A model generated the notes under the pieces. The model saw only the letters and a list, made by a program, of their open reading frames with translations, was not told the DNA's origin and searched no databases. A stretch of 64,000 bases of DNA from positions 35,822,001 to 35,886,000 of the forward strand of contig NC_080560.1 of the NCBI RefSeq assembly GCF_030253575.1. The letters run 5' to 3'. The translations under genes and the position numbers were made by a program. Below, in pieces: positions 1,579-33,614 of this stretch. Position 1 is the stretch's first letter; every line of letters starts with the position of its first letter. The DNA is from Rhododendron vialii (taxonomy: Eukaryota > Streptophyta > Magnoliopsida > Ericales > Ericaceae).

Positions 1579-3012
1579 ATGATGTCTCAGGTTGGTGTCT
1601 TTTCTCCAATCAGTCCCATGGACTCTTCCAATTTCCCAAAAGGTAATCTTCTCTCTCTACCTCCACACCCATCTCTGACTGTTTCCTTTCGTACTCATTC
1701 TCACTCTAGAAACCCTAGTTCTCCAAATACGAGTCCAGAAAACCGCCCACCACAGCCGAGAAAAAGGACCTCTGTTAACCCCAATGGACTCCGAGAAGCT
1801 CGCGAGTTTCCCAATCGGATCCCCCGAACGCGACCTTTTCCGCCCATTTTTAGTTTCACCACGGCGTTAGGGACTCTTGCGAAAAGGGGTCATTACACGG
1901 AGGCTCTCTCTCTTTTCGAAAAGTTGCGGTTACGAAGCGTTGGTGTAAATTTTTATACCTTGAACATCGCAATTAACTGTTACTGTCGCGTGAATCGAGT
2001 TGGTTTCGGGTTCTCTCTGCTAGGCAGCATCTTCAAACACGGTTTTAAACCGGATGTTGGCAGCTTTACCACGCTGTTAAGGGGACTTATTTTAGAAGAT
2101 AACGTTCCCGAGGCCGTGGAGTTATTCGAGATGTTAATGAGGAGGAGAGAGATTGAGCCCAACGAGTTTATGTATGGGACAGTTATTAATGGGCTTTGCA
2201 AGAAGGGAAACACGGGAGCGGCTGTTAGGTTGCTTAGGATCATGGAAGAGGGAAGTTGTAAACCGAACATAGTTGTGTATAGCACAATCATCGACGGTCA
2301 TTGCAAGAAGGGAATGGTGGATGATGCTTTGAACCTTTTTTACGAAATGAAAGAGAAAGGGGTTCAACCAAATGTTGTTACTTATAACTGTTTGATTAAT
2401 GGTTTAAATAAGTCTGGCCGGTGGAAGGAAGCTAATGGAATGTTGGGAGAAATGTTGGATATTCGTATTTCTCCAGACATCATTACCTTCAGTGTCTTGG
2501 TCGATGCACTTACGAAGGAAGGGAAGTTAAAAGAGGCAGAGGAAGTAATTGAAAGCTTGATTCAAAGAGGCGTGAATCCTAATGTAATCACGTACAATTC
2601 TCTAATACATGGATATTGTTTGCAAGGCCAGATGGATGAGGCAATGAGAGTGATGAATACCATGGTGGATAGGGGTATTCAAGCTGACATTCATAGCTAC
2701 AGCACTTTAATTGATGGATACTTCAAGAACATGAAAATAGATGAGGCTATGCATCTCTTTTCAGAAATGAATGAAAAATGCCTCCACCTAGATTTTGTTA
2801 CGTATAACACTTTGATTCGTGGCTTATGTGATTTTGGCCGGTGGAAGGAGGTTACAAGAGTGTTTGGAGAAATGTTGGGTGCTGGTATTTCTCCAGATAT
2901 TGAGACATTCAATATCTTTATTGATGGACTTACCAAGGCAGGGATGGTAAAAGAGGCAGAGGAAGTAATTGAAAGTATGATTCAAAGAGGTGTGGATCCT
3001 GATGTAATCTAA
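1579..3012 (+). CDS. Rf-like P-class PPR protein, copy 1 (11 motifs, C-terminally truncated)
   Basis: This is a 477-residue intronless open reading frame. Residues 1 to about 75 are rich in Ser, Pro and Arg and poor in acidic residues, as in an organellar transit peptide. From about residue 89, eleven 35-36-residue PPR motifs follow in tandem, each with the T-Y/F-x-x-L-I core and a Pro near the end (for example TYNSLIHGY). Such proteins bind organellar RNA one base per motif; close relatives are restorers of fertility and RNA-processing factors of mitochondria. By the residue 5/35 code the eleven motifs read roughly A U A ? A U A U G U U (inference). The frame ends at TAA 3010-3012, created by a TAATC duplication; PPR-like sequence continues beyond. 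The start is the first of two adjacent ATGs. The 5' leader differs from copies 2-4. It may be functional or a shortened derivative. Confidence 0.9.
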   Translation: MMSQVGVFSPISPMDSSNFPKGNLLSLPPHPSLTVSFRTHSHSRNPSSPNTSPENRPPQPRKRTSVNPNGLREAREFPNRIPRTRPFPPIFSFTTALGTLAKRGHYTEALSLFEKLRLRSVGVNFYTLNIAINCYCRVNRVGFGFSLLGSIFKHGFKPDVGSFTTLLRGLILEDNVPEAVELFEMLMRRREIEPNEFMYGTVINGLCKKGNTGAAVRLLRIMEEGSCKPNIVVYSTIIDGHCKKGMVDDALNLFYEMKEKGVQPNVVTYNCLINGLNKSGRWKEANGMLGEMLDIRISPDIITFSVLVDALTKEGKLKEAEEVIESLIQRGVNPNVITYNSLIHGYCLQGQMDEAMRVMNTMVDRGIQADIHSYSTLIDGYFKNMKIDEAMHLFSEMNEKCLHLDFVTYNTLIRGLCDFGRWKEVTRVFGEMLGAGISPDIETFNIFIDGLTKAGMVKEAEEVIESMIQRGVDPDVI

Positions 3013-3258
3013 TCTCATACAATACTTTAATGAAAGGATATCGTTTGCAAGGCCAAATGGACAAGGCAATGGGAGTGTTGAATACCATGGCGGATAGAGG
3101 CATTCAACCTGATGCCATTAGCTTCACCATTTTAAGAAATGGATATGGCAAGGACATGAAAATAGTCTAGGTGATGCATCGCTTTTTTGAAATAAGAGGA
3201 AAAGGCCTTCATCATGTTGTTCTTATTTATACCACCTTGATTCAAGGTGTATCTGTGA
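3013..3258 (+). pseudogene. Decayed C-terminal PPR coding sequence after the stop of copy 1
   Basis: Directly after the stop, another frame continues the PPR pattern: SYNTLMKGYRLQGQMDKAMG and then a motif with IQPDAISFTIL. A second in-frame stop (TAG at about 3168) and a degenerate half-motif ending TTLIQGVSVK follow. It joins the 3' flank shared by all copies at about 3258. The same remnant follows copies 2 and 3, so the truncation predates their duplication. Confidence 0.8.
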
Positions 3259-6200
3259 AGGTAAAATTCCATTCCTAAAATATGTAGTCATTATTATGTG
3301 ATACTCTTTTTTGCTTTTGCCTTTTCGTTTCTTGGTAATTTTAAATTTCCAATGTGATTCTTTAACTTTCTGGATATCACCTTTTGGAGCTGAAACAATT
3401 GTGTTTTGTTTCCCGTTCTATCTTGAACACTGATAAACTCTGTTTTACATTTTATCTGTCCCTTCTGTGGAGAAACTTTAACTGTTTATCCTTGTTCTTT
3501 CTTCTCCCATTGCTGCCTTGAGGTGGTTCATAGACATCCATAGTTAAGCCTTTAGCTTGGACCAATACTTTCACAAAACACCGAGGCGAGTACTAGTAGA
3601 TGAACCTTTTTAAGGCTTTTTCACCGCTTATACAAATAGGAAGAGAGATAGTTGAGGTCATCCCTAAGAATGACGAAATTTGAATTTTTTGGGAGATGTT
3701 TAAAACCCTTTCGTAATGCTTATCTATCACATGAGAACTGGTATTCATCTTCTAGTCTCTATACCTGTTTTGATTTGTGCATAACAGGGCTGGACCAGGT
3801 TTATGTAATGGGTACACACACGCATGTGAGCGCGTGCACACACACACATGTTGAGGTTTCAGCATGAAGATAATCTCAGTGGTATCTTTCAAATTCCTGC
3901 AGGAGTTCTAATATGGCATTGTGCACGAAGCTAAAGTTGTAAGGGAGGAGCACTGGATATTTAATTTGTAATCTGTTGTGGACTGTAGCTAATAGCAATA
4001 TGCAGCATACTCACTTGCATCTTTTAATTCAGTTTTGGCCACATTGATAGAGCTTTAAATTGAGCACCTGTGGTTTTCATTTGTTCTTGTGATTTCTGTG
4101 AGAAAGAAAGAAATCTAAGCTTCCTGTTTATTATTGTGCAAAATGCTAATTTTTTGCAAAAAACGGTAAGTATATAACCTTTAGAAAATCTTCATGAATT
4201 TGTTTTCCATGTTTTTACTTTGTTTCAGTAGATATGCTCTGGTTCCTTTTTTTTGCGTAGTTGGAATCTGCGGAATAGAGTTGGGATATTGCAATGAAGG
4301 ATTGTAGTATGAGGAATTGTAGTTGCAATTAAGGAATACTCGTCCTGCGGAGGAACCTATCTTTTTTCTCTTTTTATTTGTTAGAAACTTTTTAGGTTAC
4401 TTTAAAAGATAAAAACCTGCTGCCAATCTTTCGAATCTGTAGCCGTTTGTCACTCTCCATTTCTACTAACTTTTTGACCAAAAAATTATTTTCCCTTTTA
4501 TTTTGTGCTCACACTTGCTAAAAACGCTCGAAACGAAATTGAATAGATGTGGCTTTAGGCACGGGTATGCGGTAGTATTGTATTAATGGGTTTGAAGCTT
4601 ATCAAAAAAAAAATAATAATGCATCTATTGAAGTAGCCAAGTTTGCCCTCTCTCTTGTGGAAACTGCTCCGTAGGAACTATGTTCCTTTCAAGACTAAAG
4701 GATAATTTTCAGGTACTTGTATTTCTCTTTGCTTATTAGTTATGGTGATCAATGCAGTATATAAAGTGTACTAAGTCCTTTCTGAAACATATGTGCAGTT
4801 CGTTATAGAAGTTCAATAACCCTGTTTGCATAGGTTATTGCTTGAGCCATAATAAAAATTCAAATAGGGATGGTTTTCTTATCAATCAGCTCTTGTATGT
4901 ATTTTGTTTTTTCTTCGATCGGGATTATATGCGGATTAGATAGGAACAGGGATGAAACCAGGAATTTGACCACGCAAGGGCGATCATGCATGCGAGAAAA
5001 AAATATAAATACACATGCATAATCACGTAAATACATTAAAACTCAAAATAACATAAATACGTAAATCGGTTTATTTAATGAGATCGATCTTGATGTATGT
5101 GTCTTGTTTTTCTTTATTGTTCGTCTTTTTTTTCATTCATTACAACTGGACGAATTCAGTACATGGGGGCTTTCATGTTACTTGATTTTACCTGTCAAAA
5201 AACAAAGAATTAGAAGAAATCTAGAACAACACTTGGGACAATTGCTTGTAGAAATGGTCCTTTTTAGGTGAAATTTGGTGAGAAACCTCGACATACCTTA
5301 TTTTCTCACCAATTCATATGGTCCAACAGGGCTCTTGGAGAAATGAGAAATACTCCGTGCTAGTTGATCTCTTAAGTTGTTCACAAGTTGTCTTCTTTCA
5401 CTCAACCTGTACCGTCGTTTAATATATAGTTTAGTTCTTTTCTAATTGAACCATTTGTTGCTTGAAGTAAGATCCAAGCCGTCGATTACCGAGATGAACA
5501 GTCGGATTGGCTGCTCAGCACCGCTACCAAGCACCCCCGCTTGGCAGCATCTCCGGGTCCGCGACATTCTTAGCTTTCTGAAGTTGTAGAGAGGGTGATT
5601 TGTGAGTAAACTCCATACACTTCCTTTCATTTGGATTTTGGTTAATATCTATGTTGGTTCAAGCTAAAAGACCATGCATCATTTTGGGAAAGATTTCTAT
5701 GACAGGAAACGATTCTTGTTAACAATGATAGGTGTCTCCTTTCGGGACGCATTGCATCCTGCTTGAAACCCAAGTACTCTTATTTTCCCTTCACGTAAAT
5801 TTCAGATCAGGTGGGCTTGGAAAGGCTGAAGAACAAGGTTGAAAAGAACTCTTTTATCCCACACTTATGTCTATGGAGTAAAAATACGATGTCAGAATGC
5901 TGAGTTGGTCACAATGTTGAGTCGGTCACTCTTATATACTTATAATTGAATGATCTTATCCAATCCTCCCAGCTGCAATAACTTATAGCCTTATAGGAGT
6001 ATTTGTGTATCTAAGGTAGCATTCTTGTAAACTTTTTTGTCCAATATTTTTTTTCAGTATTTTTTTTAATTTTTCATTACTTTTTGTTTTTAGCTTTTCG
6101 TTATAATTTTTAGGATTAATCATCTGTTTCAATGAAAGAAATCTGAAAAATATAGAAATATGGACCATTATTGAAACAAATTTATGTAAGACGACACTTT

Positions 6201-6840
6201 AAACAAAAAAGATAACTGTTTGATACTTTTTGTCTTCAATGATTTTTTTTTTTCTTTTGGTCATAATTTTTCCATTTTAGACTCCTCTGGTTGTGACGGA
6301 TCATCAATCCAAAATGTATCAGGCAAGTTTAATAAAAATTAAAAAAAAATGAATAAAACACAAAAAAAAATTAAGTTTATAAAAATGCAAGAATGCATGA
6401 ACCAAATTACTAAAAATTTAGAAAAAAAATGAATAAAATACACACAAAAATTAAGTTTACAAAAATGCATGAGCCAAATTACTCAAGTTGGAATATGTAT
6501 TTGTTTGTTAAATTCAAGGTTGTTCAAGATTGATTTATTATGGCAAATGATTTTGGCACTCCAATTTTTTATGATGGCACTTCAAAATTTATCTTTTAGT
6601 GTGAAAATTATGCATAGCAAGATATACTAAAAAATAAATTTTAGAGTGCTATCGTCAAAAATTGGAGTAGCAAAATTATTTTCCTTTATTTCTTGGTTAG
6701 AAACACAAACTGATGATGCTAAAAGTGGATTTGACAATCCGAGAACACAGAAAAGCCTCTTGCAAAACAAGCCCAAATTGACCAGTGACCTGGTGGTCAT
6801 GGACTCTCTAATGAGAGTTGAGTTTTGTTTACTCTCTACT
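3259..6840. repeat. 3' flank of tandem unit 1
   Basis: About 3.6 kb of non-coding sequence repeated after copies 2 (10085-13970), 3 (17115-19465) and 4 (24483-26452). It includes an alternating purine-pyrimidine CA-rich stretch at about 3813-3850. No supported gene was seen. Unit 1 shares with unit 4 a segment (CTGTTGTGGACTGTAGC, about 3970) that units 2 and 3 have lost. Confidence 0.8.
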
Positions 6841-6879
6841 TAAGTGATGAACAACATCATTCTTCCTAGAAATGGTATG

Positions 6880-7137
6880 AATCTCACCATAAAGTGATGT
6901 CATACTTATCAAAAAATGTATTACATGGGTGAGACTTATACAATTTCAATCAATAAGAGAGAAGGTAATATTCGCGATCTTTTAAGAAGGGTGAACAAAA
7001 TTGTACTCCTCCAACGAAAACTAATTCTACAACCAACAATCTCTTTAAGAGAGGGTGAATATTACCCTCTATTTTATTGGTTGAAAATAGTGTAAATTCC
7101 ATCCCAGTAATACACTTTTTGAAAAGTATCATGAGTA
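6880..7137. mobile_element. Fold-back MITE between units 1 and 2
   Basis: About 100-bp arms form an inverted repeat: a left arm with ATGTATTACATGGGTGAGAC and a right arm with its diverged complement. The centre, near 7,010, contains TTGTACTCCTCC. Related copies lie at 14025-14265, 19480-19730 and 27054-27250, always in PPR-unit spacers or next to them. Confidence 0.6.
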
Positions 7138-7282
7138 ATTTCGCATAGATAGTATAGTAATATAGGTAAGGATAATATAGTAATTTCACGTGGTTAAAAA
7201 CACAAAAAGAAATTACTGTTGGATACAAGGTGAAAGGTGAAAACCATCTTCTTTAAAAAAATCTACTACCGCAGAGAAGAAA

Positions 7283-7297
7283 ATGGTGATAAGTTGA
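7283..7297 (+). promoter_or_regulatory. Upstream mini-ORF in the leader of PPR copy 2
   Basis: ATG-GTG-ATA-AGT-TGA encodes four residues 55 bp upstream of the PPR start. The same mini-ORF occurs in the leaders of copies 3 (about 14,407) and 4 (about 23,904) but not in copy 1, whose leader is rearranged. It matters only if transcription starts upstream of it, which the sequence does not show. Confidence 0.35.
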
Positions 7298-7351
7298 GAG
7301 ATTGCAAAGAGGAGGACCCCGCACATTCCACAGAGAAGAAGAAAAGAGGAG

Positions 7352-9838
7352 ATGATGCCTCAGTTTGGTGTCTCTTCTGCAATCAGTCCCATGGACTCTT
7401 CCAATTCCCCAAAAGGTAATCTTCTCTCTCTACCTCCACACCCATCTCTGACTGTTTCCTTTCGTATTCATTCTTACTCTAGAAACCCTAGTTCTCCAAC
7501 TACGAGTCCAGAAAACCGCCCACCACAGCCGAGAAAAAAGACCTCTGTTCTTAATCCCAATGGACTCCAAGAAGCTCGCGAGTTTCTCAATCGGATCCCC
7601 CGAACCCAACCTTTTCCGCCCATTTTTAGTATCTCCAAGGCGTTGGGGACTCTTGTGAAAAGGCGTCATTACACGGAGGCTCTTTCTCATTTCGAAAAGT
7701 TGCAGTTACGAGGCGTTCGTGTAAATTTTTATACCTTGAACATCGCAATTAACTGTTACTGTAGCGTGAATCGAGTTGGTTTCGGGTTCTCTCTGTTAGG
7801 CGGCATCTTCAAACACGGTTTTAAACCGGATGTTGGCAGCTTTACCACGCTATTAAAGGGACTTATTTTAGAAGATAAAGTTCCCGAGGCCGTGGAGTTA
7901 TTCGAGAAGTTAATGAGGAGGAGAGAGGTTGAGCCCAACGAGGTTATGTATGGTACAGTTATTAATGGGCTCTGCAAGAAGGGAAACATGGGAGCGGCTG
8001 TTAGGTTGCTTAGGATCATGGAAGAGGGAAGTTGTAAACCGAACATGGTTGTGTATAGCACAATCATCGACGGTCATTGCAAGAAGGGAATGGTGGATGA
8101 TGCTTTGAAACTTTTTTATGAAATGAAAGAGAAAGGGGTTCAACCAAATGTTGTTACTTATAACTGTTTGATTGATGGTTTAAATAAGTCTGGCCGGTGG
8201 AAGGAAGCTAATGGAATTTTGGGAGAAATGTTAGATATTTGTATTTCTCCGAACATCATTACCTTCAGTGTCTTGGTCGATGCACTTACGAAGGAAGGGA
8301 AGGTAAAAGAGGCAGAGGAAGTAATTGAAAGCTTGATTCAAAGAGGCGTGAATCCTGATGTAATCACGTACAATTCTCTAATTCATGGATATTGTTTGCA
8401 AGGCCAAATGGATAAGGCAATGAGAGTGATGAATACCGTGGTGGATAGGGGCATTCAACTTGACATTCAGAGCTACAGCACTTTAATTAATGGATATTGC
8501 AAGAACATGAAAATAGATGAGGCTGTTAGGTGGCTTAGGATCATGGAAGAGGGAAGTTGTAAACCAAACATGGTTGTGTATAGCACAATCATCGACTGTC
8601 ATTGCAAGAAGGGAATGGTGGATGATGCTTTGAACCTTTTTTACGAAATGAAAGAGAAAGGGGTTCACCCAGATGTTGTTACTTATAGCTCTTTGATTCA
8701 TGGCTTAAATAAGTCTGGCCGGTGGAAGGAAGCCAATGGAATGTTGGGAGAAATGTTGGATAGTCGTATTTCTCCAGACATCATTACCTTCAGTGTCTTG
8801 GTCGATGAACTTACGAAGGAAGGGAAGGTAAAAGAGGCAGAAGAAGTAATTGAAAGCTTGATTCAAAGAGGCGTGAATCCTGATGTAACCACGTACAATT
8901 CTCTAATTCATGGATATTGTTTGCAAGGCCAGATGGATAAGGCAATGAGAGTGATGAATACCGTGGTGGATAGGGGCATTCAACTTGACATTCAGAGCTA
9001 CAGCACTTTAATTAATGGATACTGCAAGAACCTTCAAATAGATGAGGCTGTTAGGTGGCTTAGGATCATGGAAGAGGGAAGTTGTAAACCGAACATGGTT
9101 GTCTATAGCACAATCATCGACGGTCATTGCAAGAAGGGAATGGTGGATGATGCTTTGAACCTTTTTTACGAAATGAAAGAGAAAGGGGTTCATCCAGATG
9201 TTGTTACTTATTGCTCTTTGATTCATGGTTTAATTAAGTCTGGCCGATGGAAGGAAGCCGATGGAATGTTGGGAGAAATGTTGGATAGTCGTATTTCTCT
9301 AGACATCATTACCTTCAATGTCTTGGTCGATGCACTTACGAAGGAAGGGAAGGTAAAAGAGGCAGAGGAAGTAATTGAAAGCTTGATTCAAAGAGGCGTG
9401 AATCCTGATGTAATCACGTACAATTCTCTAATTCATGGATATTGTTTGCAAGGCCAGATGGATAAGGCAATGAGAGTGATGAATACCATGGTGGATAGGG
9501 GCATTCAAGCTGACATTCAGAGCTACACCACTTTAATTAATGGATACTTCAAGAACATGAAAACAGATGAGGCTATGCATCTCTTTTCAGAAATGAATGA
9601 AAAGTGCCTCCCCCTAGATGTTGTTACGTATAACACTTTGATTCGTGGCTTATGTCATTTTGGCCGGTGGAAGGAGGTTACAAGAGTGTTTGGAGAAATG
9701 TTGGGTACTGGTATTTCTCCAGATATTGAGACATTCAATGTCTTTATTGATGGACTCACCGAGGCAGGGATGGTAAAAGAGGCAGAGGAAGTAATTGAAA
9801 GTATGATTCAAAGAGGTGTGGATCCTAATGTAATCTAA
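7352..9838 (+). CDS. Rf-like P-class PPR protein, copy 2 (21 motifs)
   Basis: This is an 828-residue intronless frame starting at a double ATG. Residues 1 to about 75 resemble an organellar transit peptide. Twenty-one 35-residue PPR motifs follow. Three consecutive 525-bp modules (7997-8521, 8522-9046, 9047-9571) each encode five motifs; they account for the 350 extra residues relative to copy 1. Modules join inside a motif, so motifs 9 and 14 are chimeras: first half from the SYSTLINGYCKN motif, second half from RIMEEGSCKP. By the residue 5/35 code the order is about A U A ? A Y G U A G G then G U A G ? U U G U Y (inference). Expected role is sequence-specific binding and processing of a mitochondrial or plastid RNA. 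The stop lies in a duplicated TAATC unit, as in copy 1. Confidence 0.92.
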   Translation: MMPQFGVSSAISPMDSSNSPKGNLLSLPPHPSLTVSFRIHSYSRNPSSPTTSPENRPPQPRKKTSVLNPNGLQEAREFLNRIPRTQPFPPIFSISKALGTLVKRRHYTEALSHFEKLQLRGVRVNFYTLNIAINCYCSVNRVGFGFSLLGGIFKHGFKPDVGSFTTLLKGLILEDKVPEAVELFEKLMRRREVEPNEVMYGTVINGLCKKGNMGAAVRLLRIMEEGSCKPNMVVYSTIIDGHCKKGMVDDALKLFYEMKEKGVQPNVVTYNCLIDGLNKSGRWKEANGILGEMLDICISPNIITFSVLVDALTKEGKVKEAEEVIESLIQRGVNPDVITYNSLIHGYCLQGQMDKAMRVMNTVVDRGIQLDIQSYSTLINGYCKNMKIDEAVRWLRIMEEGSCKPNMVVYSTIIDCHCKKGMVDDALNLFYEMKEKGVHPDVVTYSSLIHGLNKSGRWKEANGMLGEMLDSRISPDIITFSVLVDELTKEGKVKEAEEVIESLIQRGVNPDVTTYNSLIHGYCLQGQMDKAMRVMNTVVDRGIQLDIQSYSTLINGYCKNLQIDEAVRWLRIMEEGSCKPNMVVYSTIIDGHCKKGMVDDALNLFYEMKEKGVHPDVVTYCSLIHGLIKSGRWKEADGMLGEMLDSRISLDIITFNVLVDALTKEGKVKEAEEVIESLIQRGVNPDVITYNSLIHGYCLQGQMDKAMRVMNTMVDRGIQADIQSYTTLINGYFKNMKTDEAMHLFSEMNEKCLPLDVVTYNTLIRGLCHFGRWKEVTRVFGEMLGTGISPDIETFNVFIDGLTEAGMVKEAEEVIESMIQRGVDPNVI
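7997..9571 (+). repeat. Three tandem 525-bp modules inside PPR copy 2
   Basis: Matching GCT codons at 7997, 8522, 9047 and 9572 are exactly 525 bp apart, and the sequence between them is near-identical. Each module is 175 codons, five PPR motifs. Copy 1 has one module (2221-2745). Copy 3 has three: 15121-15645, a 420-bp one at 15646-16065, and 16066-16590. Confidence 0.95.
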
Positions 9839-10084
9839 TCTCATACAATACTTTAATGAAAGGATATCGTTTGCAAGGCCAAATGGATAAGGCAATGGGG
9901 GTGTTGAATACCATGGCGGATAGAGACATTCAACCTGATGCCATTGCTTCACCATTTTAAGAAATGGATATGGCAAGAACATGAAAATAGTCTAGGCGAT
10001 GCATCGCTTTTTTGAAATGAGAGAAAAAGGCCTTCATCATGTTGTTCTTACTTATACCGCCTTGATTCAAGGTGTATCTGTGAA
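9839..10084 (+). pseudogene. Decayed C-terminal PPR sequence after copy 2
   Basis: This is the same remnant as after copy 1: one more PPR motif in a shifted frame, a TAG at about 9994, then a degenerate motif that runs into the 3' flank. It also has a 1-bp loss near 9945 (GCCATTGCTTCACC against GCCATTAGCTTCACC), consistent with no coding constraint. Confidence 0.75.
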
Positions 10085-13000
10085 GATAAAGTTCCATTCC
10101 TAAAATATGTAGTCATTATTATGTGATACTCTTTTTTGCTTTTGCCTTTTCGTTTCTTGTTAATTTTAAATTTCCAATGTGATTCTTTAACTTTCTGCAT
10201 ATCACCTTTTGGAGCCGAAACAATTGTGTTTAATTTCCCGTTCTCTCTTGGACACTGATAGAATCTGTTTTCCATTTTCTGTCCTTTCTGTGGAGAAACC
10301 TCAACTGTTTATTCTTGGTCTTTCTTCTCCCATTGCTGCCTTGAGGTGGTTCATAGACATACATAGTTAAGCCTTTAGCTTGGACCGATACTTTCACAAG
10401 ACACCGAGGCGAGTACTAGGAGATGAACCGTTCTAAGGCTTTTTCACCTCTTATCCAAATAGGAAGGGAGATAGTTGAGGTCATCCGTAAGAATGACGAA
10501 ATTTGAATATTTTGGGAGATGTTTAAAACCCTTTTGTAATGCTTATCTATCACATGAGAACTGGTATTCATCTTCTAGTCTCTATACCTGTTTTGATTTG
10601 TACATAACAGGGCTGGACCAGGTTTATCTAATGGACACACGTGCGCACGCGCACTCAGACACACATGTTGAGGTTTCAGCATGAAGATAGTCTCGGTGGT
10701 ATCTTTCAAATTCCTGCTGGAGTTGTAATATGGCATTCTGCGCGAAGCTAAAGTTGTAAGGGAGGAGCACTGGATATTTGATTTGCAATCAGAAAGCATA
10801 CTCACTTGCGTCTTTTAATTCAGTTTTGGCACATTGATAGAGCTTTAATTTGTGCACCTGTGGTTTTCATTTTGATACGGTGCAGAGCATTTGTTCCTGT
10901 GATTTCTGTGAGAAAGAAAGAAATCTAAGCTTTCCATTTATTATTGGGCAAAATGCTACTTTGCAAAAATCGGTAAGTATATAACCTTTAGAAAATCTTC
11001 ATGAATTTGTTTTCCGTGTTTTTACTTTGTTTCAGCAGATATGCTCGGGTTACTGTTTTTTGCGTAGTTGGAATCTGTGGAATAGAGTTGGGGTATTCCA
11101 ATGAATGATTGTAGTACGAGGAATTGTAGTTGCAATTAAGGAATACTCGTCCCGCGGAGGAACCTATCATTTTTCTCTTTTTATTTGTTAGAAACTTTTT
11201 AGGTTACTTTAAAAGATAAAAACCTTTTGTCAATCTTTCGAATCTGTAGCCGTTTGTCACTCTCCATTTCTACTAACTTTTTGACCAAAAAATTATTTTC
11301 CATTTCATTTTGTGCCCACACTTGCTAAAAACGCTCGAAACAAAATTGAATAGATGTGGCTTTAGGCACAGGTATGTGGTAGTATTGTATTAATGGGTTT
11401 GAAGCTTATAAAAAAATAATAATAATGCGTCTATTGAAGTAGCCAAGTTTGCCCTCTAACTTGTGGAAACTACTCTGCAGTAACTATGTTCCTTTCAAGA
11501 CTAAAGGATAATTTTCAGGTACTTGTATTTCTCTTTGCTTAGTAGTTATGGTGATCAATGCAGTATAAAGCATACTATGTCCTTTCTGAAACAGATGTGT
11601 AGTTCGTTATAGAAGTTCAATAACCCTGTTTGCATAGGTTATTGCCTGAGCTATAAAAATTCAAATTGGGATAGTTTTCTTATCAATCAGCTCTTGCATG
11701 TATTAGGTTTTTTCTTCGATTGGGATTATACGCAGATTAGATAGGAACAGGGACGGAGCCAATAATTTCACCACGCAGGGGCGACCATGCATGCGAGAAA
11801 AAATATAAATACACATGCATAATCAAGTAAATACATTAAAACTCAAAATAACATAAATACGTAAATCGGTTTAACTAATGGGATCGATCTTGATGTGTGT
11901 GTCTTGTTTTTCTTTATTGTTCATCTTCTCCTTTTTCTTTCATCACAACTTGACGAATTCGGTACTTGGGTTTTTATATTATTTGATTTTACCGGTCAAA
12001 AAATAAGAATTAGGAGAAGTCTAGAACAACAATTAGGACAATTGCCGGTAGAAAATGGTCCCTTTTTAGGTGAAATTTGGTGAGAAACCTCGACATACCT
12101 TTTTTTCTCACCAATTCATACGGTCCAATGGGGCTTTTGGAGAAATGAGAAATACTCCGTACTAGTTGATCTCTTAAGTTGTTCACAAGTTGTCTTCTTT
12201 CACTCCCCCTTTACCGTCGTTTAATATATAGTTCAGTTCTTTTCTAATTGAACCATCTGTTGCTTGAATTAAGATCCAAGTCGTTGATTGTCGACATGAA
12301 CGGTCGGATCAGCTGCTCGGCACCGCTACCAAACACTCTTGCTTGGCAGCATCCCCGGATGCGGGACATTCTTAGCTTTCTGAAGTTGTAGAGAGGGTGA
12401 TTTGTTAGTAAACTCCGTACTCTTCCTTTCATTTGGATTTTGGTTAATATCTATTATCTATGTTGGTTTAAGCTAAAAGACCATGCATCATTTTGGGAAA
12501 GATTTCTATGATAGAAAATGATTCTTGTAAACAATGAAATGATAAGTGTCTCCTTTCGGGACGCATTGCATCCTGCTTGAAACCCAAGTACTCTTATTTT
12601 CCCTTCACGTAATTTTCAGATCATATAGGCTTGGAAAGGCTGAAGAACAAGGTTTTAAAGAACTCTTTTATCCCGCACTTGTGTCTATGGAGTAAAAATG
12701 CGATGTCAGAATGCTGAGTTGGTCACAATGTTGAGTCGGTCATTTTTATGTACTTATAATTGAGTGATCTCATCCAATCCTCCCAGCTGCAATAACTTAT
12801 AGGAGTATTTGTGTATCTTAGATAGCATTCTTGTAAACTTTTTTGTCCAAAAATTTTTTCAGTATTTTTTTAATTTTTCATTACTTTTTGTTTAACTTTT
12901 CGTTATAATTTTTAGGATTAATCATCTGTCTCGAAGAGAGAAATCTGAAAAATATAGAAATATGGACCATTGTTGAAACAAATTTATGTAAGACGACATT

Positions 13001-13970
13001 TTAGACAAAAAGACAAATGTTTGATACTTGGTCATAATTTTTCCTTTTTAGACTCCTTTGGTCGTGATGGATCATCAATCCAAAATATATCAGGCAAGTT
13101 TAATAAAAATTTAGAAAAAAAATGAATAAAATACGGAAAAAAAATTAAGTTTACAAAAATTGCAAGAATGCATGAACCAAATTACTAAAAATTTAGAATA
13201 AAATGAATAAAATACACAAAAAAACTAAGTTTACAAAAATGCATGAGCCAAATTACTCGAGTTGGAATATGTATTTGTTCGTTAAATTCAAGGTCGTTCA
13301 AGATTGATTTAGTATGGCAAATGATTTTGGCACTCTAATTTTTTACGATGGCACTCCAAAAATTATCTTTTAGTGTGAAAATTATACATAGCAAGGTACA
13401 CTAAAAAATAAATTTTAGAGTGCCAAAATTATTTTCCTTTATTTATTAGTTAGAAACACAAAATGATGATACTAGTGGCCGTTCGGCAGTGGCTGTTCGG
13501 CTAAAGTCAAGTGGCTTATATTTTTGTCTTTATTCAAATTTTTTTCGTATATGTTAGTTTTTCGTCAATTTTTTGGGGATTATTGCTTCATCATGACGAA
13601 AGGAATCTAAAAAGTAAAAAATTATGATCGAAACCTAATATTTTTGAATAAAGACAAAAATAAGCCAATAAGTCAATTTTTTCGTCTTTATTCAAAACAA
13701 ATGGATTTCGATCGTAATTTATTACTTTTTAGATTCCTCTTGTCATGAAGAAGCAATAATTCCTAAAAAATTGACAAAAAACTAACAAATGCGAAAAAAA
13801 TTGAATAAGAATAAAAAAATAAGCCAAGTGACTTATTTAGCCGAACGGTCAAAAGTGGATTTGACAATCCGAGAACTCCGAAAAGCCTATTGCAAAACAA
13901 GTCCAAATTGACTGGTGACCTGGTTGGTCGTGGACTTTCCAGAGTTGAGTCTTGTTCCCTCTTTGTTTAA
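10085..13970. repeat. 3' flank of tandem unit 2
   Basis: Homologous to 3259-6840. No supported gene. It shares with unit 3, but not units 1 and 4, a deletion of about 30 bp at about 10,790. It carries a MITE at 13475-13850 that is absent from unit 1 at the same place. Confidence 0.8.
13475..13850. mobile_element. Fold-back MITE (GCCGTTCGGC ends) inserted in unit 2
   Basis: Ends are GGCCGTTCGGC and GCCGAACGGTC. The arms contain TTTTTCGTATATGTTAGTTT and its complement and meet near 13,660. Unit 1 reads straight through this site (GATGATGCTAAAAGTGG at about 6712), so it is a recent insertion. A related element is at 30093-30457. Confidence 0.8.
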
Positions 13971-14024
13971 GAGGTGAGTAACATCATTTTTTTTATTGGT
14001 CGAAATAATATGAATTTCATTATA

Positions 14025-14265
14025 AAATGTTATCATACTTACCAAAAAGTGTATAACAGGAGTGAGACTTACACAATCTCAATCAATAAGAAGGAGAATA
14101 ATGTTCACCATCTTTTAGGAGGGTGAACAAAATTACACTACTCCAACGATAACTAATTCTACTACCAACACACTCTTTAAGAGAGGGTGAATCTTACCGT
14201 CCCTCTTATCGGTTGAAATGATATAGATTCTATCACTGTAATACACTCTTTGATAAGCACGACGA
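14025..14265. mobile_element. Fold-back MITE between units 2 and 3
   Basis: Same family as 6880-7137, at the equivalent position upstream of PPR copy 3, so it was copied along with the unit. Confidence 0.55.
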
Positions 14266-14475
14266 GTAATTTCACATGGATAATATAGTAATATAGGTAA
14301 GGATAATATAGTAATTTCACATGGTTAAAAACACAAAAAGAAATTGCTGTTGGATACAAGGTGAAAACCATCTTCTTTAAAAAATTCTACTTCCACATAG
14401 AAGAAAATGGTGATAAGTTGAGAGATTGCAAAGAGGAGGACTCCGCACATTCCACAGAGAAGAAGAAAAGAGAAG

Positions 14476-16857
14476 ATGATGTCTCAGGTTGGTGTCTCTT
14501 CTGCAATCAGTCCCATGCACTCTTCCAATTCCCCAAAAGGTAATCTTCTCTCTCTACCTCCACACCCATCTCTGACTGTTTCCTTTCGTACTCATTCTCA
14601 CTCTAGAAACCCTAGTTCTCCAACTACGAGTCCAGAAAACCGCCCACCACAGCCGAGAAAAAAGACCTCTGTTCTTAACCCCAATGGACTCCAAGAAGCT
14701 CGCGAGTTTCTCAATCGGATCCCCCGAACCCGACCTTTTCCGCCCATTTTTAGTATCTCCACGGCGTTAGGGACTCTTGCGAAAAGGCGTCATTACACGG
14801 AGGCTCTTTCTCATTTCGAAAAGTTGCAGTTACGAGGCGTTCGTGTAAATTTTTATACCTTGAACATCGCAATTAACTGTTACTGTAGCGTGAATCGAGT
14901 TGGTTTCGGGTTCTCTCTGTTAGGCGGCATCTTCAAACACGGTTTTAAACCGGATGTTGGCAGCTTTACCACGCTGTTAAAGGGACTTATTTTAGAAGAT
15001 AAAGTTCCCGAGGCCTTGGAGTTATTCGAGAAGTTAATGAAGAGGAGAGAGATTGAGCCCAACGAGGTTATGTATGGGACAGTTATTAATGGGCTCTGCA
15101 AGAAGGGAAACACGGGAGCGGCTGTTAGGTGGCTTAGGATCATGGAAGAGGGAAGTTGTAAACCGAACATAGTTGTGTATAACACAATCATCGATGGTCA
15201 TTGCAAGAAGGGAATGGTGGATGATGCTTTGAACCTTTTTTACGAAATGAAAGAGAAAGGGGTTCACCCAGATGTTGTTACTTATAGCTCTTTGATTAAT
15301 GGTTTAAATAAGTCTGGCCGGTGGAAGGAAGCTCATGGAATGTTGGGAGAAATGTTGGATATTCGTATTTCTCCAGACATCATTACCTTCAGTGTCTTGG
15401 TCGATGCACTTACGAAGGAAGGGAAGGTAAAAGAGGCAGAGGAAGTAATTGAAAGCCTGATTCAAAGAGGCGTGAATCCTAATGTAATCACATACAATTC
15501 TCTAATATATGGATATTGTTTGCAAGGCCAGATGAATGAGGCAATGAGAGTGATGAATACCATGGTGGATAGGGGCATTCAACTTAACATTCAGAACTAC
15601 AGCACTTTAATTAATGGATATTGCAAGAACATGAAAATAGATGAGGCTGTTAGGTGGCTTAGGATCATGGAAGAGGGAAGTTGTAAACCGAACATGTTTG
15701 TGTATAACACAATCATTGATGGTCATTGCAAGAAGGGAATGGTGGATGATGCTTTGAAACTTTTTTATGAAATGAAAGAGAAAGGGGTTCAACCAAATGT
15801 TGTTACTTATAACTGTTTGATTGATGGTTTAAATAAGTCTGGCCGGTGGAAGGAAGCTAATGGAATTTTGGGAGAAATGTTAGATATTTGTATTTCTCCT
15901 ACTGTAATCACATACAATTCTCTAATACATGGATATTGTTTGCAAGGCCAGATGGATGAGGCAATAAGAGTGATGAACACCATGGTGGATAGGGGCATTC
16001 AACTTGACATTCAGAACTACAGCACTTTAATTAATGGATATTGCAAGAACATGAAAATAGATGAGGCTGTTAGGTGGCTCAGGATCATGGATGAGGGAAG
16101 TTGTAAACCGGACATGGTTGTGTATAGCACAATCATCGACGGTCATTGCAAGAAGGGAATGGTGGATGATGCTTTGAACCTTTTTTACGAAATGAAAGAG
16201 AAAGGGGTTCACCCAGATGTTGTTACTTATAGCTCTTTGATTCATGGTTTAATTAAGTCTGGCCGGTGGAAGGAAGCCAATGGAATGTTGGGAGAAATGT
16301 TGGATAGTCGTATTTCTCCAGACATCGTTACCTTCAGTGTCTTGGTCGATGCACTTACGAAGGAAGGGAAGGTAAAAGAGGCAGAGGAAGTAATTGAAAG
16401 CTTGATTCAAAGAGGCGTGAATCCTAATGTAATCACGTACAATTCTCTAATACATGGATATTGTTTACAAGGCCAGATGGATAAGGCAATGAGAGTGATG
16501 AATACCATGGTGGATAGGGGCATTCAAGCTGACATTCAGAGCTACACCACTTTAATTAATGGATACTTCAAGAACATGAAAATAGATGAGGCTATGCATC
16601 TCTTTTTAGAAATGAATGAAAAATGCCTCCCCCTAGATGTTGTTACGTATGACACTTTGATTCGTGGCTTATGTCATTTTGGCCGGTGGAAGGAGGTTAC
16701 AAGAGTGTTTAGAGAAATGTTGGGTACTGGTATTTCTCCAGATATTGAGACATTCCATGTCTTTATGGATGGACTTACCGAGGCAGGGATGGTAAAAGAG
16801 GCAGAGGAAGTAATTGAAAGTATGATTCAAAGAGGTGTGGATCCTGATGTAATCTAA
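14476..16857 (+). CDS. Rf-like P-class PPR protein, copy 3 (20 motifs)
   Basis: This is a 793-residue intronless frame with the same transit-peptide-like N terminus as copy 2, followed by 20 PPR motifs. It has three modules like copy 2, but the second lacks 105 bp, exactly one motif: CISP is followed directly by TVITYNSL, where copy 2 has a complete ITFSVLVDALTKEG motif. The second module matches module 1 of copy 2 in private variants (KLFYEM, GILGEMLDICISP), suggesting exchange between genes. Residue 5/35 pairs read about A U A ? U G A Y A Y then ? U G G G A U G ? ? (inference). Motifs 19 and 20 carry unusual D and H at position 5. The stop lies in a four-copy TAATC tract. Confidence 0.92.
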   Translation: MMSQVGVSSAISPMHSSNSPKGNLLSLPPHPSLTVSFRTHSHSRNPSSPTTSPENRPPQPRKKTSVLNPNGLQEAREFLNRIPRTRPFPPIFSISTALGTLAKRRHYTEALSHFEKLQLRGVRVNFYTLNIAINCYCSVNRVGFGFSLLGGIFKHGFKPDVGSFTTLLKGLILEDKVPEALELFEKLMKRREIEPNEVMYGTVINGLCKKGNTGAAVRWLRIMEEGSCKPNIVVYNTIIDGHCKKGMVDDALNLFYEMKEKGVHPDVVTYSSLINGLNKSGRWKEAHGMLGEMLDIRISPDIITFSVLVDALTKEGKVKEAEEVIESLIQRGVNPNVITYNSLIYGYCLQGQMNEAMRVMNTMVDRGIQLNIQNYSTLINGYCKNMKIDEAVRWLRIMEEGSCKPNMFVYNTIIDGHCKKGMVDDALKLFYEMKEKGVQPNVVTYNCLIDGLNKSGRWKEANGILGEMLDICISPTVITYNSLIHGYCLQGQMDEAIRVMNTMVDRGIQLDIQNYSTLINGYCKNMKIDEAVRWLRIMDEGSCKPDMVVYSTIIDGHCKKGMVDDALNLFYEMKEKGVHPDVVTYSSLIHGLIKSGRWKEANGMLGEMLDSRISPDIVTFSVLVDALTKEGKVKEAEEVIESLIQRGVNPNVITYNSLIHGYCLQGQMDKAMRVMNTMVDRGIQADIQSYTTLINGYFKNMKIDEAMHLFLEMNEKCLPLDVVTYDTLIRGLCHFGRWKEVTRVFREMLGTGISPDIETFHVFMDGLTEAGMVKEAEEVIESMIQRGVDPDVI

Positions 16858-16866
16858 TCTAATCTA
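16847..16866 (+). repeat. Four-copy TAATC microrepeat at the stop of PPR copy 3
   Basis: Four TAATC units lie here, against two at the same site in copies 1 (about 3004) and 2 (about 9830). The first TAA in frame terminates the protein. The insert relative to one unit is 15 bp here (frame kept apart from the stop) and 5 bp in copies 1 and 2 (frame shifted). Confidence 0.9.
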
Positions 16867-17114
16867 ATCTCATACAATACTTTAATGACAGGATATCGTT
16901 TGCAAGGCCAAATGGATAAGGCAATGGGAGTGTTGAATACCATGGCGGATAGAGGCATTCAACCTGATGCCATTAACTTCACCATTTTAAGAAATGGATA
17001 TGGCAAGAACATGAAAATAGTCTAGGCGATGCATCGCTTTTTTGAAATGAGAGAAAAGGGCCTTCATCATGTTGTTCTTACTTATACCGCCTTGATTCAG
17101 GGTGTATCTGTGAA
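16867..17114 (+). pseudogene. Decayed C-terminal PPR sequence after copy 3
   Basis: One complete PPR motif (YNTLMTGYRLQGQMDKAM onward), then TAG at about 17,022 and a degenerate motif, as after copies 1 and 2. Because the TAATC insert here is a multiple of three, this motif is in frame with the main protein behind the stop codon. Confidence 0.75.
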
Positions 17115-19465
17115 GATAAAGTTCCATTCCTAAAATATGTAGTCATTATTATGTGATACTCTTTTTTGCTTTTGCCTTTTCATTTCTTGTTAATTTTAAA
17201 TTTCCAATGTGATTCTTTAACTTTCTGCATATCACCTTTTGGAGCCAAAACAATTGTGTTTTTATTTCCCGTTCTCTCTTGGACACTGATAGACTCTATT
17301 TTCCATTTTATCTGTCCTCTCTGTGGAGAAACCTCAACTGTTTATTCTTGGTCTTTCTTCTCCCATTGCTGCCTTGAGGTGGTTCATAGACATCCATAGT
17401 TAAGCCTTTAGCTTGGACCAATACTTTCACAAAACACCGAGGCGAGTACTAGTAGATGAACCGTTCTAAGGCTTTTACACCGCTTATACAAATAGGAAGA
17501 GAGATAGTTGAGGTCATCCCTAAGAATGACGAAATTTGAATATTTTGGGAGATGTTTAAAACCCTTTCGTAATGCTTATCTATCACATGAGAACTGGTAT
17601 TCATCTTCTAGTCTCTATACCTATTTTGATTTGTACATAACAGGGCTGGACCAGGTTTATCTATTGGACACACGTGCGCGTGCGCACTCAGACACACATG
17701 TTGAGGTTTCAGCATGAAGATAGTCTCAGTGGTATCTTTCAAATTCCCGCTGGAGTTGTAATATGGCATTCTGCGCGAAGCTAAAGTTTTAAGGGAGGAG
17801 CACTGGATATTTGATTTGCAATCAGAAAGCATACTCACTTGCGTCTTTTAATTCAGTTTTGGCACATTGATAGAGCTTTAAATTGTGCACCTGTGGTTTT
17901 CATTTTGATACGGTGCAGAGCATTTGTTCCTGTGATTTCTGTGAGAAAGAAAGAAATCTAAGCTTTTCATTTATTATTGGGCAAAATGCTACTTTTTTTG
18001 CAAAAATCGGGAAGTATATAACCTTTAGAAAATCTTCATGTTGATCAAAAAAAAAAAAAAAAAGAAAATCTTCATGAATTTGTTTTCCGTGTTTTTACTT
18101 TGTTTCAGCAGATATGCTCGGGTTACTGTTTTTTGCGTAGTTGGAATCTGCGGAATAGAGTTGGGGTATTCCAATGAATGATTGTAGTACGAGGAATTGT
18201 AGTTGCAATTAAGGAATACTCGTCCCGCGGAGGAACCTATCATTTTTCTCTTTTTATTTGTTAGAAACTTTTTAGGTTACTTTAAAAGATAAAAACTTTT
18301 TGTCAATCTTTCGAATCTGTAGCCGTTTGTCACTCTCCATTTCTACTAACTTTTTGACCAAAAAATTATTTTCCATTTCATTTTGTGCCCACACTTGCTA
18401 AAAAAGCTCGAAACAAAATTGAATAGATGTGGCTTTAGGCACAGGTATGCGGTAGTATTGTATTAATGGTTTGAAGCTTATAAAAAAATAATAATAATGC
18501 GTCTATTGAAGTCGCCAAGTTTGCCTTCTAACTTGTGGAAACTACTCCACAGGAACTATGTTCCTTTCAAGACTAAAGGATAATTTTCAGGTACTTGTAT
18601 TTCTCTTTGCTTATTAGTTACGGTGATTAATGCAGTATAAAGCTTGCTAAGTCCTTTCTGAAACATTTTTGAAACATGTGTAGTTCGTTATAGAAGTTCA
18701 ATAACCCTGTTTGCATAGGTTATTGCTTGAGCTATAAAAAATTCAAATTGGGATAGTTTTCTTATCAATCAGCTCTTGTATGTATTAGGTTTTTTCTTCG
18801 ATCGGGATTATACGCGGATTAGATAGGAACAGGGACGGAGCCAGTAATTTCACCACGCAAGGGCGACCGTGCATGCGAGAAAAATTGTAAATACACATGC
18901 ATAATCAAATAAATACATTAAAACTCAAAATAACATAAATACATAAATCCGTTTAACTAATGGGATCGATCTTAATGTATGTGTTGTTTTTCTTTATTGC
19001 TTATCTTCTTTTTTTCATTCATCACAACTGGATGAATTCGGTACTTGGGTTTTCATGTGACTTGATTTAACCAGTCAAAAAATAAGAATTAGGAAAAGTC
19101 TAGAACAACAATTAGGACAATTGCCCGTAGAAATGGTCCTTTTTTAGGTGAAATTTGGTGAGAAACCTCGGCATACCTTTTTTTCTCACCAATTCATACG
19201 GTCCAATGGGGCTCTTGGAGAAATGAGAAATACTTCGTACTAGTCAAGTTTACAAAAATGCAAGAATGCATAAACCAAATTATTCGAGTTGGAATATGTA
19301 TTTGTTTGTTAAATTCAAGGTCGCTCAAGATTGATTTATTTATTACTACTAGACACACAAACTACTGATCGCTAAAAGTGGATTAACGATCCAATAACTC
19401 CGAAAAGCCTCTTGCAAAACAAGTCCAAATTGACCAATGACCTGGTTTGTTGGTCGTGGACTCTT
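17115..19465. repeat. 3' flank of tandem unit 3, with an internal deletion
   Basis: Homologous to the unit 1 and 2 flanks up to about 19,242, where it jumps directly to sequence matching about 13,220 of unit 2. About 1 kb is missing. No supported gene. Confidence 0.75.
18027..18076. mobile_element. Micro-insertion with 14-bp target-site duplication
   Basis: AGAAAATCTTCATG occurs at 18027-18040 and 18063-18076. Between them lie 22 bp, TTGATC followed by A residues. Units 1, 2 and 4 have a single copy and no insert, so this is a clean insertion in unit 3. TTGAT-poly(A) resembles the 3' ends of plant LINEs. Confidence 0.85.
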
Positions 19466-23628: not shown

Positions 23629-23971
23629 TACATTTAAGCATAATCATTTGGATTATTGTCATTAGTCTGAAGTCCAATAGGTATAGAACACACCCTGAAA
23701 TGTTTATAGGCCTGGGGAAAGGAATCCATAGAGCAATTGAAAGAGGGATCACGCAAAAGTATTGAATTACCCTTAAGATGGAAAAGCAAATTTAATCCAA
23801 CAGGTAAGGATAATATAGTAATTTCACATGGATAAAAACACACAAAAAGAAATTGCTGTTGGATACAAGGTGAAAGCCATCTTCTGCTACCGCAGAGAAG
23901 AAAATGGTGATAAGTTGAGAGATTACAAAAGGAGAACTCCGCACATTCCACAGAGAAAAAGAAAAGAGGAG

Positions 23972-24448
23972 ATGATGTCTCAGGTTGGTGTCTCTTCTGC
24001 AATCAGTCCCATGGACTCTTCCAATTCCCCAAAAGGTAATCTTCTCTCTCTACCTCCACACCCATCTCTGATGCATTTTGCAAGAAGAAAGAACTTGATA
24101 CTGCACTGTATGCTTTCATTAAAATTTCATCCAGGGGGTTACATCTTGACATTAAGACATAAAATGTTACGATACAAGGTCTTCGTGAAGAAGGCTTTCT
24201 GGATGAAGCAAAAGGATTCTCTGAAAATGGAACAGAATGGTTTGTTGCCTGATAGTATCACTTACTACGCTGCCGTCTGTGGTTTTCTTGATCAATAGAA
24301 AGTCAACGAGGCTTCGGTATTGGTTGGAGGGTTTTCCGTCACCAATGAATCTACTTTTCCCTTGACTATTGACCTTTCTGCTACTAAAAGACAGGACCCT
24401 TCTCTTCAAGAAGTGATCAAGAAGTTCTTGCGCAATGATGGACATTGA
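23972..24448 (+). pseudogene. PPR copy 4: internally deleted, N terminus joined to the ancestral C terminus
   Basis: The first 33 codons match copies 1-3 (start to PPHPSL), then the sequence jumps at CATCTCTGATGC into the last PPR motifs (DAFCKKKELDTALYAFIK, GLREEGFLDEAKG, NGLLPDSITYYAAVCGFLDQ) and a C-terminal tail ending FLRNDGH with TGA at 24446-24448. The junction shifts the frame. Further breaks are a TAA after LHLDIKT, a small indel near 24,220 and a TAG at 24296-24298. All the tandem motifs are missing, so it cannot encode a working PPR protein. It is valuable because it preserves the C-terminal region that copies 1-3 have lost. Confidence 0.88.
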
Positions 24449-24482
24449 AGTCAGTAGATTGTATAAATTCATTTTATCTTTG

Positions 24483-33510: not shown

Positions 33511-33511
<1 letters not shown>
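32505..33511 (-). CDS. Tau-class glutathione S-transferase 2 (two exons)
   Basis: Exon 1 is 33511-33194 (318 bp, the same length as GST 1) and exon 2 is 32948-32505; the intron (33193-32949) has GT-AG ends. The product is 253 residues and closely related to GST 1. It has [20 protein letters not shown] with likely catalytic Ser15, [10 protein letters not shown], and [13 protein letters not shown] (R replaces the L of GST 1 after ES). The C-terminal domain contains [20 protein letters not shown] and [16 protein letters not shown]. The C-terminal extension is also present and partly conserved ([14 protein letters not shown]). All splice sites and the frame are intact, so it is probably functional. 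Expected role is cytosolic glutathione conjugation or ligand binding under stress. Confidence 0.92.

Positions 33512-33573
<62 letters not shown>
33512..33573. repeat. (GT)n(GA)n compound microsatellite abutting the GST 2 start codon
   Basis: GT repeats (33512-33528) are followed by GA repeats to 33573, directly upstream of the minus-strand ATG. Same placement as at GST 1 but with a changed repeat type next to the codon. Confidence 0.95.
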
Positions 33574-33576
<3 letters not shown>

Positions 33577-33614
33577 TTATTGGCTTATTGCTAATGTATG
33601 GTTGTGGTTATATA

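Follow-up and report, generated by a model that had tools for sequence, protein, structure and literature searches.

How neighboring PPR genes come to differ in length by whole blocks of repeats is the question raised by this locus. The window, a stretch of 64,000 nucleotides, carries three open reading frames (A, B, and C; Table 1) that a previous sequence-only reading had described as RFL-type PPR genes with an in-phase five-motif module of 525 bp, reused in adjacent genes in 1, 3, and 3 copies and originating through repeat gain and loss. All these points were supported by the current analysis, which confirmed the copy numbers as well as the seven intervals between the listed codons (six of 525 bp and one of 420 bp) and the arithmetic of the protein lengths (477 + 1 + 350 = 828 and 828 - 35 = 793). 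The best explanation, which can be assigned a probability of about 75%, is that A, B, C, and a gutted fourth unit, D, are tandem duplicates of a single RFL-type P-class PPR gene, the lengths of A, B, and C being different because a five-repeat block was copied by recombination.

The products of A, B, and C match the Pfam families PPR_2, PPR_1, and PPR (PPR_2 E values of 5.5e-130, 1.1e-245, and 4.2e-220, respectively) and, as in P-class PPR proteins, consist of tandem 35-aa motifs, spaced exactly 35 aa apart, with no PLS pattern. Counting the degenerate types 1-3, there are 11 motifs in A, 21 in B, and 20 in C; RFL arrays are described in the accessible part of PMC5075784 as having about 15 to 20. 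Motif types follow the canonical arrays of paralogs L010-L014, where each of types 1-14 is found once, L010, L011, and L014 being themselves the references for the typing. The N termini of all three proteins are rich in Ser, Pro, and Arg, and one extra codon precedes the first motif in B and C (273 versus 270 nt), which accounts for the single added residue. The genes are clustered in the RFL manner: A through D stand in tandem, paralog L009 lies 45 kb upstream, and more paralogs are found at 36.4 to 37.3 Mb of the same contig. The spacer behind A is duplicated behind B and C, with 3 to 7% divergence among the units, which shows that gene and spacer were duplicated together in tandem.

Table 1. 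Features of the PPR gene cluster (positions within the window)
Feature	Position	Strand	Description
Gene A	1579..3012	+	Truncated RFL-type PPR protein, 477 aa; types 1-4, 5-9, 6', 7'
A, sole module	2224..2748	+	525 bp, crossover codon to crossover codon
A, stop	3005..3014	+	(TAATC)2, stop two residues beyond motif boundary
A, remnants	3013..3260	+	Untranslated PPR remnants behind stop
A, spacer	3260..6649	+	Spacer, duplicated behind genes
Gene B	7352..9838	+	828 aa; types 1-4, [5-8, 9/4]x2, 5-9, 6', 7'
B, module 1	8000..8524	+	525 bp
B, junction motif	8465..8569	+	Chimeric: type 9 through codon 20, type 4 after
B, module 2	8525..9049	+	525 bp
B, junction motif	8990..9094	+	Further copy
B, module 3	9050..9574	+	525 bp
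B, stop	9831..9840	+	(TAATC)2
B, remnants	9839..10085	+	Equivalent of A remnants
B, spacer	about 10085..13423	+	Equivalent of A spacer
Gene C	14476..16857	+	793 aa; layout of B without type 7 in middle module
C, module 1	15124..15648	+	525 bp
C, junction motif	15589..15693	+	Further copy
C, module 2	15649..16068	+	420 bp; lacks type 7, with motif 6 joined at codon 34/35
C, junction motif	16009..16113	+	Further copy
C, module 3	16069..16593	+	525 bp
C, stop	16850..16869	+	(TAATC)4
C, remnants	16858..17115	+	Equivalent of A remnants
C, spacer	about 17115..19244	+	Equivalent of A spacer
Unit D	23802..26147	+	Fourth tandem unit; most of PPR array gone, N-terminal leader and C-terminal tail retained

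The seven module copies share 91.0 to 97.1% pairwise identity. When B is compared with itself at a lag of 525 bp, identity peaks at 96.6% over 525 bp, against a background (starts outside positions 6000-18000) with a mean of 0.27, a standard deviation of 0.026, and a maximum of 0.43. For A, the overall lag-525 identity is 0.341, and positions 2221 and 2746, previously listed as a matching pair, do not represent a repeat: the match is limited to the GCT codon and the motif phase. Near-identical tandem repeats commonly cause assembly errors, and the sequence-only reading had itself raised the possibility that the extra modules arose when copies of a single gene were misassembled. The evidence went the opposite way: 66 of the 525 aligned sites differ between module copies, the spacers differ as well, and the junction motif described below is present solely in the expanded copies. 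Further, the R. vialii haplotype A assembly, if it is the source of this sequence, was built from HiFi reads, the typical length of which spans each of these genes. Because the copies diverge, misassembly was rejected as highly improbable.

The sites listed in the sequence-only reading all carry a GCT codon and correspond to a crossover codon, at which type 9 is joined in phase to type 4. Alignment of the junction to both parents (for 8465-8569 and 15589-15693) showed that motifs B9 and C9 match type 9 up to codon 20 and type 4 beyond it; positions 2221 and 2746 of A mark the un-recombined parents of this junction. Such a motif was probably generated in the lineage leading to B and C, when a misaligned exchange fused motif 9 to motif 4, in each at codon 20, at a common GGCT. 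This exchange would have duplicated types 5-9 (525 bp), both in frame and in PPR phase, and the resulting two near-identical modules could have become three via ordinary unequal crossing-over and gene conversion. The same processes probably moved blocks from one of these genes to the other and deleted one motif, type 7, from the middle module of C, which is why that module has only 420 bp. While the outcome is directly visible in the sequence, unequal crossing-over and gene conversion are the putative mechanism. Mosaic sites are consistent with it: module 1 of B matches module 2 of C from offset 110 through types 5-6, and in type 8, copies 1 and 2 of each gene cluster together. At 0 to 10 synonymous changes per comparison, the synonymous divergence between same-position modules of B and C (0.10 for module 1 and 0.061 for module 3) exceeds that of the B-C spacer (0.030), whereas Ks values for module pairs inside B (0.061 to 0.087) are similar to the A-B distance (0.069 in the spacer). 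With the modules of B diverged from one another as much as A has from B, A could have gone back to a single module rather than keeping one throughout.

The six window modules (leaving out the short one of C) form a single clade with support of 100/99, with L009 outside. In blastn searches with module 2 of B, one module was found in L009 (88.2% identity), whose frames are broken and whose further matches (79% and 74%) are older four-motif copies, and one each in L015, L029, L032, L035, L037, L042, and L049 (81 to 87%), the matches in L029 and L042 being partial and the module of L049 being split by a 537-bp insert. A candidate second module at 36.41 Mb proved to be part of a single module interrupted by an insert of 537 bp. 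As the nearest paralogs examined have one module, the three-module state is derived. The junction parents, the junction motif, the unexpanded paralogs, and the expanded copies all survive together, making this cluster a base-resolved case of a plant lengthening an RNA-binding array.

The closest known system is the radish Rfo locus (PPR-A, PPR-B, PPR-C, PPR-1, and PPR-2), which, according to the available portion of PMC2848758, similarly contains clustered RFL-type PPR genes with a five-repeat block in tandem (repeats 8-12 and 13-17) and intragenic recombination between neighbors. It has two block copies in a stable 17-repeat array common to rapeseed, whereas the window has three young copies, a 1-versus-3 difference between neighbors, and a readable junction. 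The module can be called unusually clean, as it was previously, with respect to the identity of its copies but not as a type of event, since duplication of a five-repeat block has already been published. In rice RFLs, motif gain and loss via unequal crossover have been reported (PMC5075784). This earlier work likewise found variation at residues 5 and 35, and its accessible part describes no fixed 525-bp module. Judging by titles and abstract openings, none of the papers found on Rhododendron, pentatricopeptide proteins, and male sterility dealt with Rhododendron restorers. The window cluster is best read as birth-and-death evolution of RFL genes, a fresh example of a known process.

The sequence-only reading had also proposed five as a general step. 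Among 40 other loci examined in the same genome, 10 have a two-motif unit, one has a seven-motif unit, and only one has types 5-9 in three copies; besides, C lost a single motif and the window genes themselves retain traces of an older four-motif step. The genes L033 and L045-L048 resemble the window genes in being RFL-like and growing by in-phase motif blocks but use a two-motif unit (types 2-3, N-terminal), present in six copies in L046. The single five-motif case, L022 (contig C1, 909 aa), has types 5-9 three times at 525 bp, like the window genes, but differs from them in that its own junction falls at a motif boundary, its copies are 84 to 93% identical, and its array continues to types 10-12. 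Module transfer between contigs C4 and C1 was considered and rejected, as the L022 copies belong to another clade and share just 70 to 72% identity with the window module; the sequences indicate that types 5-9 were amplified in L022 independently. This recurrence and the radish block duplication (PMC2848758, as available) could mean that growth by five is favored for structural or functional reasons, with selection mainly keeping five-motif increments that suit a protein or RNA partner working in fives. Such a preference is unlikely, given the units of two and seven, the older four-motif unit, and the one-motif loss, and no ancestral five-motif period was found in 26 RFL arrays, where the mean motif identity at lag 5 was 0.276, compared to 0.277-0.305 at lags 1-4 and 6-8.

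The lengths given above are those of truncated proteins, a point that the sequence-only reading had missed, as all three frames end at a common secondary stop, created by a TAATC duplication, with decayed motifs downstream. The presence of this stop in all three genes suggests that it removed the C terminus before the genes multiplied. Among the A remnants, typing recognized one type 8 motif and inspection by eye a 9-like and a 6-like one; the B remnant carries a 1-bp deletion. The post-stop remnants differ at 9 of 245 (A-B) and 11 of 246 (A-C) positions, too few for Ka/Ks. Functional restorers have complete C-terminal repeats, whereas here the stop cuts the array. In radish Rfo, deleting the last PPR repeat alone abolished restoration (PMC4240901, available portion), so this truncation counts against restorer activity. 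It could even be that the stop inactivated the cluster and the module number now drifts without function, as suggested by the mostly missing array of D, the broken frames of L009, the deletion in the B remnant, and the lack of evidence for selection in L022, a comparable gene. Decay of this kind is a real but distinctly less probable alternative, as the three frames remain open over 477 to 828 codons despite the spacer divergence, and codons evolve differently in the scaffold and at RNA-contact residues.

In nine motif groups (types 1-3 left out), variable columns made up 12 of 18 at residues 5/35 and 42 of 297 elsewhere (P = 1.7e-6), and omega was 2.91 at residues 2/5/35 versus 0.39 elsewhere, although neither the columns nor the pair-summed counts are independent, since conversion can spread a single change. 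Synonymous changes were not enriched at 5/35 (1/18 versus 24/297), and a codon-matched control gave 11/16 versus 6/29 (P = 0.002). With all twelve groups the excess is weaker but still holds (13/24 versus 58/396; P = 1.8e-5), types 1-4 by themselves having none (1/8 versus 19/132). Types 9-11, compared between genes only, also vary mostly at 5/35 (4/6 versus 12/99; P = 0.005), which would be post-truncation divergence if the stop is ancestral and argues against decay. Diversifying selection at RNA-contact residues, a hallmark of RFLs, is thus seen in motif types 4-11 of the window genes, which probably encode restorer-type proteins that bind RNA in organelles, with RNA binding, targeting, and restorer role all putative. 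The code residues of L022 showed no enrichment (3/10 versus 56/165, P = 0.72; omega of 0.62 versus 0.76), nor did those of the two-motif arrays L045-L047 (4, 3, and 4 pairs, with repeats from one search string); these results speak against a general rule.

Within B, the 5/35 pairs are SN, NN, SD, ND, and SN in module 1, SD, SD, SD, ND, and SN in module 2, and SD, CD, ND, ND, and TD in module 3. The RNA footprint, previously surmised to change in blocks of five bases, is therefore not a repeated 5-mer, and as the contact residues have changed faster than the scaffold, the modules do not appear to read the same five bases. Each extra module would lengthen the RNA-contact surface, and changes at residues 2, 5, and 35 could then provide module-specific specificity. 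A more speculative and rather doubtful extension is that types 5-9, with a 5' edge falling somewhere from mid-motif 4 to the beginning of motif 5, form a preferred RFL expansion cassette amplified independently in unlinked genes, that even C-terminally truncated RFLs remain under diversifying selection after expansion, and that length and specificity coevolve in five-nucleotide steps. Because the same five types recur in a gene that is not linked to this cluster, other genomes can be used to ask whether there are preferred breakpoints. The combination of a conserved scaffold with fast-changing contact residues in fresh copies suggests a shift of specificity soon after duplication, and such an early change is a prediction of the nuclear-mitochondrial arms-race model.

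A tandem cluster of PPR genes occupies the window's first 27 kb. It comprises three neighbouring genes of the restorer-of-fertility-like (RFL) type, A, B, and C, and a fourth unit, D, in which the leader is fused to the C-terminal PPR tail in one 156-aa frame. Spacers were copied along with the genes: in the window self-comparison, for example, positions 2220-6228 and 9046-13029 are 91.6% identical. The 3′ spacer, compared over ∼0.95 kb, diverges by 0.069 between A and B, 0.066 between A and C, and 0.030 between B and C, and that of unit D differs from those of A, B, and C by 0.063, 0.058, and 0.053, respectively.

Features of the window (positions in nucleotides)
Feature	Position	Strand	Size or repeat	Remark
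Gene A, open frame	1579-3012		477 aa	Pfam PPR_2, E 5.5e-130
TAATC repeat at stop of A	3005-3014		(TAATC)2	
Gene B, open frame	7352-9838		828 aa	Pfam PPR_2, E 1.1e-245
TAATC repeat at stop of B	9831-9840		(TAATC)2	
Gene C, open frame	14476-16857		793 aa	Pfam PPR_2, E 4.2e-220
TAATC repeat at stop of C	16850-16869		(TAATC)4	
Unit D, fourth tandem unit	23802-26147			Leader and C-terminal tail kept; PPR array mostly gone
RVT_3	30998-31507	-		Domain match, exon/fragment
GST, N-terminal	33062-33607	-		Domain match, exon/fragment
Palindromic repeat	36942-37375			MITE-like
DUF761	40016-40816	+		Domain match, exon/fragment
Malate/lactate dehydrogenase, C-terminal	47385-48149	+		Domain match, exon/fragment
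Palindromic repeat	53426-53815			MITE-like
Myb	55727-56257	-		Domain match, exon/fragment

The genes were split into 35-codon motifs, and every motif was typed by comparison with L010, L011, and L014, three canonical RFLs from this genome whose arrays run from type 1 to type 14; two loci outside this reference set, L012 and L013, were also typed 1 to 14. The motif order in A is 1-4, 5-9, 6, 7 (its motif 5 was automatically typed as 8, yet has 93 to 97% identity with type 5 in the other two genes). In B, motifs 1-4 are followed by two copies of a block made of types 5-8 and a junction motif that starts as type 9 and ends as type 4 (typed as 4), and then by 5-9, 6, 7. Gene C has the same order, except that its middle module lacks type 7, exactly one motif having been deleted with the joint at codon 34/35, and has its chimera typed as 9. 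The module is exactly 525 bp long, and its seven copies are 91.0 to 97.1% identical in pairwise comparisons. The switch from type 9 to type 4 falls at a GCT codon, where GGCT is common to both parents; the codons listed in the sequence-only reading proved to be this very codon. The window genes also retain an older four-motif step: motifs 10 and 11 of A are 77% and 81% identical to motifs 6 and 7, and a type 8 motif comes next, behind the stop.

All three frames finish with DP(D/N)VI followed by TAA, two residues beyond a motif boundary, and the proteins lack the C-terminal motifs present in canonical RFLs. Their end point is set by a short tandem repeat of the pentanucleotide TAATC. PPR sequence goes on past the stop; its reading frame is shifted in A and B and unchanged in C. 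An additional stop, located in the second motif past the TAATC site, is common to A, B, C, and L009, a relative at another locus. The latter has no TAATC repeat of at least 2 units and is open at this site, but contains other stops and frame breaks.

Searches with module 2 of B (blastn) found a single module in L009 (88.2% identity; extra matches of 79% and 74% are older four-motif copies) and one each in L015, L029, L032, L035, L037, L042, and L049 (81 to 87%), partial in L029 and L042 and split by an insert in L049, so that one module is the ancestral state. The insert in L049 (C4:36408500-36414500, on the same contig as the window) is a 537-bp stretch unlike the module. Exchange among copies would explain both the mosaic sites (starting at offset 110, m1 of B matches m2 of C across types 5-6, but type 8 groups m1 of B with m2 of B and m1 of C with m2 of C) and the raised synonymous divergence between B and C in the same-position modules compared (0.10 for m1 and 0.061 for m3, against 0.033 for motifs 1-4; all from small counts); the B-C spacer divergence is also below that of m1 and m3. 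Module pairs within B differ by 0.061 to 0.087 at synonymous sites, close to the A-B distance, and A may therefore have either kept or regained its single module.

The comparison set comprised 40 further loci, a selection of the best among 169 matches to gene A, some of them perhaps not RFLs. An in-phase internal repeat, i.e., at least one stretch of 150 bp at ≥85% identity, was found in 12 of these 40, with a two-motif unit in 10 (L015, L019, L026, L033, L036, L042, and L045-L048, the first three as well as L036 and L042 only just reaching these values), a five-motif unit in L022, and a seven-motif unit in L040. Two more loci have repeats solely out of PPR phase (L025, lag 1308; L028, lag 186). 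On another contig, L022 carries types 5-9 three times, with the junction at the motif boundary and copies that are 84.0, 86.1, and 92.8% identical. Because a tree of 15 sequences placed the six full window modules in one clade (100/99) adjoining L009 and the L022 modules elsewhere, the two expansions are independent. That one block was repeated in two separate genes is suggestive, but the count is two events. The sequence-only claim of growth in steps of five holds for the exact 525-bp unit of the window genes but is not supported as a general step, since units of two or seven motifs occur at other loci; given these and the older four-motif step, block growth is general, and five is one outcome.

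In the RFL-like genes L045-L048 (C4, 37.05-37.09 Mb), the repeated two-motif units are N-terminal (types 2-3; ∼85 to 90% identity at a lag of 210 bp), and L046 has six of them. The junction motif of L040 (C4:37107500-37113000) resembles a type 11/type 4 chimera, and its first block contains an apparent 3/4 fusion. An odd motif order, 1-4 and then 6, 4, 5, 6, etc., is found in both L038 and L039 (C4, 38.12 and 38.09 Mb), which lie 34 kb apart and are 97.6% identical over 3.55 kb; this is perhaps another block duplication.

For counts of variable columns, homologous motifs were sorted into nine groups (types 4-11 plus the chimera) or into twelve (types 1-3 added). In the nine groups, residues 5 and 35 were variable in 12/18 columns versus 42/297 for the rest (P = 1.7e-6), with no excess of synonymous variation (1/18 versus 24/297); in the twelve, the counts were 13/24 versus 58/396 (P = 1.8e-5), types 1-4 by themselves showing no excess (1/8 versus 19/132). 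Inclusion of residue 2, the third RNA-contact residue, gave 17/27 versus 37/288 (P = 2.1e-8) and 18/36 versus 53/384 (P = 1.4e-6), respectively. Omega in the nine groups was 2.91 at residues 2/5/35 and 0.39 elsewhere (from pair-summed, non-independent counts), and a control limited to Asp, Asn, and AGY-Ser codons gave 11/16 versus 6/29 (P = 0.002). The excess at 5/35 was seen within the B modules alone (P = 0.02), and the code-residue test gave P = 0.0005 within C and P = 0.005 for types 9-11. No excess was found in L022 (3/10 versus 56/165; P = 0.72) or, likewise, at the code residues of the two-motif arrays L045-L047. The pattern thus suggests selection for new RNA specificity in the window genes but not in L022.

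In rice RFLs, one or several motifs at a time have been duplicated or deleted, which is ascribed to unequal crossover (PMC5075784). Restoration by Rfo was lost when its final repeat was deleted (PMC4240901). The window cluster is thus a clear further example of an established process, of moderate interest for its readable junction, neighbours with one versus three modules, independent recurrence of the block, and the selection contrast.

Two palindromic repeats of ∼400 bp lie in the rest of the window, each ∼91% identical to its own reverse complement and with ∼81% mutual identity.
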